Source of the DNA: a virus
DNA length: 49,826 nucleotides
IMG/VR virus record: IMGVR_UViG_3300022841_000022
Coordinates: 1 to 49,826 of that record
Reading direction: 5' to 3' (one strand)
Part shown: positions 17,729 through 19,936 of the stretch, piece by piece
How positions within the stretch are numbered: the stretch's first letter is position 1
How the letters are laid out: each line of letters starts with the position of its first letter
The notes under the pieces: generated by a model
Seen by the model: the letters and a program-made list of their open reading frames with translations, nothing else
The model's database searches: none
Told to the model about the DNA's origin: nothing
Position numbers and translations under genes: made by a program

Positions 17729-18565
17729 TTAGTTTTTACCCCAACCACTTAAATTGCTTTCAATAACCGATTGAGTTTGTCTGTTAATAGTTTTTTCTTT
17801 TACTATTGCTTTGTTTTTATAATTGTCCTCTAATATTTTAATAAAATTACTTTGATTAAATATCCAATCAAAATTAGCACACCATTCTTTTACTTTTCCA
17901 TTTAAAAAATCACTTTCAGAAACTTTTTTTAATACATCTCCAATGGTCTGTAAATCGTATTCTTTTTCTCGTGCTTTAATTAATTTTTTTCTTTTTTCAG
18001 AAATAGTTTTTACTTTAGGTAAATCAATACAAACAGAATTAAATATATCCTTTACTTCTTCAAAATCAATTATTACTTTTTTTAAAGTAAATTCTTCATT
18101 TTTTAATTTAAGCCATTTATATAAATTATCATTTACCTCTTTATAGTTAGTGTTTAATAGTTTAATAGTTTCTTTATTTAGTTGTTTAGATAAGGTATCA
18201 CTACCATTACCACTACCATTACTACTACTTTTAACACTACCATTATCAGTACTATTATCAGTACCTTTATCAAATCTGTACAAGTGTATTTTACTGCCTA
18301 TTAATGGATTGTAAGAGGGTTTGTAGTTAATTAACTTATGATTATGCAATTCTTTTAAACATTTTGTATAGGTGTTTGCAGAACCTATTTTCGATAACTT
18401 CATAACGTCATTTCTATTCACAGATAAATCAGAATCAAAACCACACTCATTCCATATTAAAAACAAAGCATTATACAATGAAATATGAGTGCAGTTTAAA
18501 TTCATTTCTATTAGTTTTAAATTTATAGCCTTATGATGTTTTATGTAATTTACATCTTGTTTCAT
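17729..18565 (-). CDS. Winged-helix replication protein (DnaD-like role)
   Basis: A 278-residue protein with an N-terminal winged-helix region (HISLYNALFLIWNECGF, then VMKLSKIGSANTYTKCLKEL, about residues 22-73). A Ser/Asn/Gly-rich linker (about 105-125) and a lysine-rich helical C-terminal half follow. This architecture is that of phage replication organisers acting like DnaD/DnaT to load the host helicase, and the gene order supports it. The start overlaps the upstream TGA (ATGA). No helicase or ATPase motif is present. Confidence 0.7.
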   Translation of the reverse strand: MKQDVNYIKHHKAINLKLIEMNLNCTHISLYNALFLIWNECGFDSDLSVNRNDVMKLSKIGSANTYTKCLKELHNHKLINYKPSYNPLIGSKIHLYRFDKGTDNSTDNGSVKSSSNGSGNGSDTLSKQLNKETIKLLNTNYKEVNDNLYKWLKLKNEEFTLKKVIIDFEEVKDIFNSVCIDLPKVKTISEKRKKLIKAREKEYDLQTIGDVLKKVSESDFLNGKVKEWCANFDWIFNQSNFIKILEDNYKNKAIVKEKTINRQTQSVIESNLSGWGKN

Positions 18566-19092
18566 ATTTTAAATCCTTCATTATTTAATAAATATCCTGA
18601 TTCTTGCTTAAAAATTATTCCATTAACTTTATAATCGTAAGTGTAAAATTCTACATTTTCGTTGAAATTAGGAATAAAACAAAATGAACCAGAAGTATCT
18701 AATTCTTTTCCTATTAAAACAATTTTAAACTCAATTTCTTGTTTAAAGTTTCTTTTATCTAAATAAGACTCAATACCTCTAACGTACCTAAGAGCCTGTA
18801 AATAAGCTGATATTCCTATTTTTTCTTTTTTTAGTTCATAAACAGTAACGAATAGTTTTGGGATTACTTCTGTATAAGCAATAGCCTCTATAACACCATC
18901 TATTTCAAAAGGTCTATCAATCTCTGTGTTGAAATCATAACATTTATCAATTGTTACTAAATCAGCAATACCATAATTTCCAATTCTTAATTGTCGGTAT
19001 GTTTTACCATAAAAATATAATCCTCTTTTTCTTAATGTTTCACTAGGTGTTTCATTAATGATTTCTTCCAAATCTTTTTCTAAAAATGTCAT
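18562..19092 (-). CDS. PD-(D/E)XK-like nuclease, putative
   Basis: A 176-residue protein with the spacing of a PD-(D/E)XK nuclease core: Asp44 in YGIADLVTI, then VTVYELKKEKIGISAYLQ (Glu86, Lys88, Gln99), and a following helix LRYVRGIE. The ELKKxxI...Q pattern resembles restriction-endonuclease-like proteins that act on DNA ends. Function is inferred from this motif. It ends with a TGA overlapping the next gene (ATGA), showing coupled translation and that TGA works as a stop in this phage. Its leader contains an unusual hairpin pair and terminator. Confidence 0.6.
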   Translation of the reverse strand: MTFLEKDLEEIINETPSETLRKRGLYFYGKTYRQLRIGNYGIADLVTIDKCYDFNTEIDRPFEIDGVIEAIAYTEVIPKLFVTVYELKKEKIGISAYLQALRYVRGIESYLDKRNFKQEIEFKIVLIGKELDTSGSFCFIPNFNENVEFYTYDYKVNGIIFKQESGYLLNNEGFKI

Positions 19093-19118
19093 ACGTTCCG
19101 TATTTTAATTAAAACAAA

Positions 19119-19167
19119 AAACCTCTTAATTCATACAGGGTCTGATGCTGTAATCGTTAAAAGGTTT
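19119..19167 (-). terminator. Leader terminator/attenuator hairpin
   Basis: Read on the minus strand, AAACCTTTTAA (19167-19157) pairs with TTAAGAGGTTT (19129-19119) with one mismatch, followed by a T-rich run (TTTTGTTTT). Inside the loop is a second stem, TACAG/CTGTA, with apical loop CATCAGACC. It lies 27 bases upstream of the 18562-19092 gene, so it would attenuate rather than end the operon. Confidence 0.6.
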
Positions 19168-19180
19168 ATGTTAATTTTTA

Positions 19181-19203
19181 AGTTACCAATTTCCAGACCG
19201 TAA
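19181..19203 (-). promoter_or_regulatory. Upstream hairpin with loop complementary to the attenuator loop
   Basis: GTTAC pairs with GTAAC around a 13-base loop containing GGTCTG (19199-19194). That hexamer is perfectly complementary to CAGACC (19144-19139) in the apical loop of the downstream hairpin. A kissing-loop interaction is therefore possible. Confidence 0.5.
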
Positions 19204-19230
19204 CTAAGATTGCAATATACGTAAATTTAA

Positions 19231-19488
19231 TTAAACCACTTCATATAATAGTTCTAATTTATTCTTATCTATTGCTTTGTAACTATAAAAACTTCCTGAA
19301 TTACCAAACTTATTTGTAAAAGTATGCCTTGTTTTTTTAGTTATTATCCCGAATTTAAGTTCTATTTCACTTAATCTAGTTTGGAACTTATGGAATAATG
19401 AATCATTTATTACGTCTTTTAAGGTTAATTCATCCCAATTATAAAGATACCAAATTACTTGTTGCTTCTGTTTTTTCGGATTTTTCAT
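19231..19488 (-). CDS. Small winged-helix-like phage protein
   Basis: An 85-residue protein with the pattern LTLKDVINDSLFHKFQTRLS and a C-terminal FYSYKAI strand. It looks like a small winged-helix domain, a recurring pattern in Bacteroidetes phages near replication genes. It overlaps the upstream DnaA-like gene by 50 bases in a different frame. Role unknown; DNA binding is likely. Confidence 0.7.
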   Translation of the reverse strand: MKNPKKQKQQVIWYLYNWDELTLKDVINDSLFHKFQTRLSEIELKFGIITKKTRHTFTNKFGNSGSFYSYKAIDKNKLELLYEVV

Positions 19489-19936
19489 GTTTTTTGTTTT
19501 TAAGTTCTGTTTTTAAATTTTTTAAATCTTCAAGATCGTATGTTTTAATTATCTCTAATATTTCAGTTTTCTCCTTGAATATTAATAAAGCATCTCCACT
19601 TAATTCTGAAAGCAACTTTGCATCTTCACTTAAATCATTTACAAACTTTATTATTTGCTTATCGCATGTAAGAAAGTCTATAATTACATTTTTACTATGA
19701 AGAACGGATGCATGGTCTAAGTATTTATTAGTTCTACTAACAAATAAGTTACCTATTTCAACCGTAGACATAAATATATTTTTATGAATAAAATATATTG
19801 CAATTTGTCTAGGTATCATAACTGTTCTTTTTCTTGCATGTACATTGCACTCTACATTAAAATACTCATTAACTAATTTTATTATTTGATTAGCTTTGTA
19901 TCTTTTTTCTACTAAATTCAATCTTTTATTTAACAT
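19439..19936 (-). CDS. Protein with DnaA domain IV-like DNA-binding domain
   Basis: A 165-residue protein whose residues 38-86 match the C-terminal DNA-binding domain of DnaA: MIPRQIAIYFIHKN, then VEIGNLF, then the signature-like DHASVLHS (residues 74-81; DnaA proteins typically read RDHTTVLHA). The ATPase domain of DnaA is absent. The C-terminal half is a charged helix ending in a Lys/Glu-rich tail. A free domain IV could bind DnaA boxes at a phage origin, recruit or compete with host DnaA, or act as a regulator. The domain call is firm; the role is inference. Confidence 0.8.
   Translation of the reverse strand: MLNKRLNLVEKRYKANQIIKLVNEYFNVECNVHARKRTVMIPRQIAIYFIHKNIFMSTVEIGNLFVSRTNKYLDHASVLHSKNVIIDFLTCDKQIIKFVNDLSEDAKLLSELSGDALLIFKEKTEILEIIKTYDLEDLKNLKTELKNKKHEKSEKTEATSNLVSL

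Follow-up and report, generated by a model that had tools for sequence, protein, structure and literature searches.

In the ColE1 system the 7-nt loops of RNAI and RNAII pair over their full length. The put RNA of phage HK022 consists of two hairpins at the start of the phage early transcripts and affects termination; to our knowledge it acts on the polymerase at later terminators, and a loop-loop pairing is not known for put. In addition, the attenuator of plasmid pT181 controls the plasmid replication gene repC. In attenuators of this type, whether transcription terminates is decided by loops that kiss with an antisense RNA (PMC4878617). Two mutually complementary loops within a single phage RNA are found in the pRNA of phi29 (PMC6765105).

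The window analysed here is a stretch of 49,826 nucleotides of viral DNA (IMG/VR record IMGVR_UViG_3300022841_000022). It contains a leader on the minus strand at 19207-19111, in the intergenic region between a small gene ending at 19231 and a gene starting at 19092. The leader comprises a 5' hairpin (P1), a linker, a second hairpin (P2) and a T-run, and a promoter-like site is located 5' of P1. This site, the Bacteroidetes -7 promoter-like element TATATTGC (19212-19219, minus strand), is an imperfect match to TAnnTTTG and places the predicted RNA start at about 19207. P1 (19181-19205) is formed by a 6-bp stem with the arms AGTTAC (19205-19200) and GTAACT (19186-19181) and a 13-nt loop which opens with GGTCTG (L1, 19194-19199). 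After an unpaired linker (19168-19180) follows P2 (19119-19167), composed of an 11-bp basal stem with the arms AAACCTTTTAA (19167-19157) and TTAAGAGGTTT (19129-19119), a 4x4 internal loop and a 5-bp apical stem, TACAG/CTGTA, closing the loop CATCAGACC (19147-19139). CAGACC at the end of this loop (L2, 19139-19144) is the perfect complement of L1, and the extended words GGTCTGG/TCAGACC form seven pairs including one G-U. The T-run TTTTTTGTTTT (19111-19121) begins with six uninterrupted T at 19121-19116, the last of which lies 23 nt short of the ATG at 19092. P2 thus represents the hairpin with T-run that marks an intrinsic terminator, and both hairpins are predicted by RNAfold (19110-19210). 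The internal loop of P2 reads CGAT/TGAA (19153-19156 and 19130-19133, minus strand) and in relatives often TGAA/GGAT, where tandem sheared G-A pairs are possible.

The original prediction, made from the letters of the window, had described just these parts: a small minus-strand hairpin GTTAC/GTAAC with GGTCTG in its loop, an apparent terminator with T-run carrying CAGACC in its loop, and perfect complementarity of the six bases. All of them were found again in the sequence, and the two hairpins in the RNAfold structure. The single sequence is inconspicuous. The fold z-scores of the window site were -0.85 and -2.13 in comparison to shuffles, energies that fall inside or close to the range of the shuffled sequences. 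When the window was scanned loosely for pairs of hairpins with complementary loops, such pairs were no more numerous than in its shuffled versions. The L1/L2 match in the window sequence alone is not beyond chance; when relatives are compared, the complementarity of L1 and L2 is far beyond it.

Homologues of the 18562-19092 product are encoded at 78 viral loci. At the majority of them a directly upstream hairpin, or a free 5' strand, complements the loop of a hairpin with T-run; a few distant homologues lack the leader upstream. The layout is constant among these loci, while the loop words are unrelated between phages and keep their complementarity. Six variants (L002, L037, L027, L047, L056, L074) show no clear P1; the partner of the terminator loop is instead a free 5' strand, 7-12 nt in length. 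At least seven complementary nucleotides between both regions exist in 79 % of 53 distinct leaders, compared to 10 % of mismatched leader pairs, and the observed complement sum of these leaders was attained by none of 20,000 permutations. A lack of conservation of both loops among relatives had been named beforehand as an outcome that would speak against the element; the complementarity is conserved, the loop sequence is not.

Covariation was determined on MAFFT alignments built without regard to pairing. In 14 type I leaders (alignment A3) the loop-loop helix was paired in 90.7 % of the cells and the covariation score of the whole structure was 0.626, compared to 0.215 after shuffling and at most 0.19 when the structure was slid by 1-3 columns. 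For 14 type II leaders, the window among them (A2), 88.8 % of the cells of the loop-loop helix were paired and the score was 0.504 vs. 0.208 shuffled. An alignment of 27 leaders (A4) reached 95.4 % for the loop-loop helix, with two-sided changes in all four helices (P1, loop-loop, P2 basal, P2 apical). The covariation score of the leader alignments was attained by none of 500 shuffles. These are covarying complementary hairpin loops as expected of a kissing RNA element.

Furthermore, viral contigs were searched with promoter and P1 fixed, the six loop bases free and everything downstream unspecified. This unconditioned search gave at least 88 distinct leaders with at least 20 different loop words. 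Among the matches listed, 87 of 88 distinct leaders carry the exact 8-nt reverse complement of their loop word downstream, and the remaining one forms eight of eight pairs, one of them a G-U; among the same matches the gap between L1 and L2 is 43-49 nt, and a T-run stands behind the second hairpin in all 88. Because the partner was left unspecified in the search and was present in 88 of 88 leaders among the matches listed, selection on the loop-loop pairing can be regarded as settled at the level of sequence comparison. The core positions of the T-run are T in 94-99 % of distinct relatives. Among 102 distinct leaders, partly chosen on these same loop bases, the unpaired bases A-N-Y-A-T-A 3' of L1 and G-A before L2 are nearly constant. 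Structure and conservation of the leader are near certain.

A loop-loop helix is always also an inverted repeat at the DNA level, and the complementary words might therefore serve as an operator with no RNA structure involved. However, the words lie within two hairpins whose stems covary separately and which are followed by a T-run, and constant unpaired bases stand beside them. The gap varies between 43 and 49 nt among the matches listed, so that DNA phasing is not strictly kept. An operator is hardly conceivable under these circumstances.

With a covariance model, exactly one copy of the leader was found in 26 of 30 phage records and none in the other four; in an earlier model, one record had a copy before a homing-endonuclease gene. 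With the window left out of its construction, a sequence model matched the window solely at 19200-19116 (E 7e-4). The cultured Flavobacterium phage FL-1 possesses the complementary loop pair CGTCTCAC/GTGAGACG, and a complementary pair is also found in the cultured phages Nekkels_1, Freya_1, phi13:2, elemoA and FCV-1. The leaders of Freya_1, phi13:2, elemoA and FCV-1 were located by reading intergenic DNA, where model searches gave weak matches. As these cultured phages carry it, the leader is directly testable. No leader was seen in the regions read of Riemerella phages. The GGTCTCAC form, the one loop variant sought there, had no match among the genomes of 84,980 bacterial and archaeal species, and no homologue of the 18562-19092 protein was found in bacterial genomes. 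Judged from these sequences, the leader looks widespread in phages of Flavobacterium and relatives.

The first gene behind the leader (18562-19092, minus strand) encodes a candidate PD-(D/E)XK nuclease resembling NucS/EndoMS. The NucS_C domain match is weak and occurs in 2 of 19 homologues; the top PDB matches of the predicted fold include NucS/EndoMS 2vld and 5gke (E 0.02-0.06), and no Pfam or PHROG family was assigned to the product at threshold. The product is conserved, and its N-terminal EKDLEEII is invariant among the 19 aligned sequences. The second gene (17729-18565, minus strand) encodes a putative replication initiation protein or DnaD-like helicase loader (PHROGs 19658, 10469). Just upstream of the leader, the product of 19439-19936 (minus strand) contains a DnaA-type helix-turn-helix (Bac_DnaA_C), and a similar protein is located directly upstream of the leader at locus L290. 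GC skew, used to place the origin, gave no signal at the leader.

That the leader belongs specifically to the nuclease gene was considered and rejected, because the same element precedes many other genes, among them small ORFs, HNH/NUMOD4 and GIY-YIG endonucleases, a DEAD helicase and a ParB-like methyltransferase. HNH/NUMOD4 and GIY-YIG homing endonuclease genes stand directly behind the leader at five loci (L117 1501-1592, minus strand; L120; L144; L229; L314), as if they had been inserted between the leader and the replication genes. In the operons read, PHROG match or resemblance assigns the first larger gene to the replication initiation or DnaD-like proteins; behind it lie helicase, NinG-like, ERF-like and YqaJ-like genes, the latter three named from sequence reading. 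In the operons examined, which are examples and not a count over all leaders, the leader heads the replication operon. The link to the 18562-19092 gene that had originally been proposed does not hold in this form, and the element is much larger than could be seen from the window.

Another small hairpin, ATAC-GGAAC-GTAT(G), was read by eye across the start codon (19091-19103, minus strand). Relatives of the 18562-19092 gene show the variants ATAAC-GGAAT-GTTAT(G) and AATTC-GGAAT-GAATT, hence a GGAAT-type loop on stems that differ complementarily (ATAC/GTAT, ATAAC/GTTAT, AATTC/GAATT) at many loci, e.g. L004 and L010. It is confined to leaders that lie further from the ATG. As a general part of the leader this motif was rejected, since a search gave unrelated matches elsewhere and only L084 and L102 as new homologue sites.

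TAnnTTTG is the Bacteroidetes promoter consensus (PMC6847099). Of 47 leaders selected by protein, 41 have it no more than 45 nt upstream of L1, compared to 6 of 158 background windows. A second promoter motif between terminator and gene is present in 2 of 88 leaders among the matches listed. From this near absence of a second promoter together with the upstream motif, the genes behind the leader appear to depend on read-through of the terminator, starting from the leader promoter or from one further upstream. A terminator between the promoter, assigned by motif, and the gene of one unit, combined with this dependence, is the layout of an attenuator. The suggestion of a kissing loop acting in an attenuator-like way is supported by the covariation of the loops, the constant T-run, the upstream promoter motif and the scarcity of second promoters. 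The alternative naming as an RNA sensor is conjectural.

We regard the leader as probably an attenuator of transcription that acts in cis, the kissing helix engaging its terminator. Transcription of the approximately 90-nt leader RNA before the replication operon would begin at the adjacent upstream promoter, and the 5' end of the transcript would fold into P1. Once P2 emerges, its loop would pair with the P1 loop and a loop-loop helix of 7-8 bp would be formed. The majority of transcripts would then stop at the T-run, with the replication genes expressed by read-through only. The kissing helix would help or lock the terminated state, and freeing or masking of a loop, with a protein, an RNA or the polymerase speed as the trigger, would let the polymerase pass. 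We infer attenuation in the cell, a kissing that favours termination and the existence of a trigger.

The direction of the effect could also be the reverse. L2 leaves the polymerase ahead of the 3' arm of P2, so that L1 might capture it before this arm exists, delay the terminator and cause read-through; with about -12 kcal/mol as a plain duplex, L1:L2 is strong. However, the pairing resides in the loops and not in the stem arms, so the terminator need not be excluded, and the two hairpins are energetically ahead of the plain long-range L1:L2 helix in 138 of 149 leaders. We therefore hold this order of events to be highly unlikely. Since loop pairing and terminator stem can coexist, are conserved together and the hairpins win by energy, it is most likely that the kissing helix aids or locks termination. 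An antiterminator, with the linker pairing to the 5' arm of P2, gave a weak Watson-Crick signal (3 of 5000 permutations) that was gone when G-U was allowed.

The own loop words of 19 phage genomes occur elsewhere in these genomes 3 times vs. 3.4 expected. As they are not enriched, action in cis, within the molecule, is favoured; within these genomes neither trans targets nor a second loop-word site for an antisense partner of the pT181 type was found beyond expectation. Two L1-L2 partners on different molecules are nevertheless imaginable: leaders could join, or a finished leader could act on a nascent one, whereby the leader concentration, and with it the genome copy number, would set read-through. 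L1 and L2 are mutually complementary within one RNA like the loops of the ring-forming pRNA (PMC6765105), and a control of copy number like that of the pT181 attenuator (PMC4878617) would agree with the position before replication genes. Against this, the narrow gap of 43-49 nt among the matches listed and the length of the linker fit a pairing in one molecule, which is expected to prevail over pairing in trans, and such a contact between leaders seems quite unlikely.

A simply strong terminator would make the leader a small RNA and not a switch. The terminated RNA of about 90 nt would then be the product itself, a small or protein-binding RNA, and the operon would be expressed by leak or from elsewhere. 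The complete unit from promoter to terminator with T-run, as well as the nearly constant unpaired loop bases (A-N-Y-A-T-A, G-A) reminiscent of a protein-binding site, would agree with such a product. However, a gene follows directly behind the leader with almost no second promoter between, and the loop words are without a target elsewhere in the phage genome, which makes a free-standing RNA unlikely.

The leader points to an RNA-level control of phage replication. With Rfam 15, the window was without a match at the gathering score, the region 19060-19260 gave no more than weak matches at chance level, and nothing was found at E up to 0.5 in ten other leader-carrying loci; that the element was not recognised as a known class thus holds against this collection. 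In the open-access literature, with most subscription papers and preprints outside its scope, no description of the element was found. It has the look of an RNA element that controls phage replication, is widespread and has so far gone undescribed. In our judgement it is fairly likely that these phage leaders form a new RNA class, widespread among the phages of Flavobacteriia: P1 would kiss the loop of the terminator within one molecule and thereby control how the replication operon is transcribed, with loops that diverge but stay complementary. If so, phages of abundant Bacteroidota would possess a structured RNA family with exceptionally clean covariation evidence; two hairpins, loop-loop helix, T-run, promoter motif and one copy per genome are established by comparison of the relatives. 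In addition, RNA engineering could draw directly on the naturally varied loop pairs as a collection of kissing pairs.

Among the known systems, HK022 put is likewise an RNA of two hairpins, but in the leader the second hairpin is itself a terminator. The type I leaders share 7-nt loops with ColE1 RNAI/RNAII; in contrast to these two RNAs from opposite strands, which lack a terminator, the leader is one RNA with a terminator. In their logic, phi29 pRNA and the attenuators of the pT181 type come nearest to the leader. As in phi29 pRNA, both complementary loops reside within one phage RNA. However, pRNA forms an intermolecular ring and serves DNA packaging, whereas the leader has a terminator at its end and is placed at the head of replication genes. 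The leader resembles that of the Staphylococcus plasmid pT181 in its 5' hairpin, its intrinsic terminator and its kissing loops. It differs in that the loops of the phage leader share one strand, whereas pT181 uses a separate antisense RNA as partner and an antiterminator switch. We know of no case among pT181, pRNA, ColE1 and HK022 put in which a leader hairpin kisses the loop of a terminator on the same strand, and the phage leader suggests such a kissing loop in cis as a means of setting termination.
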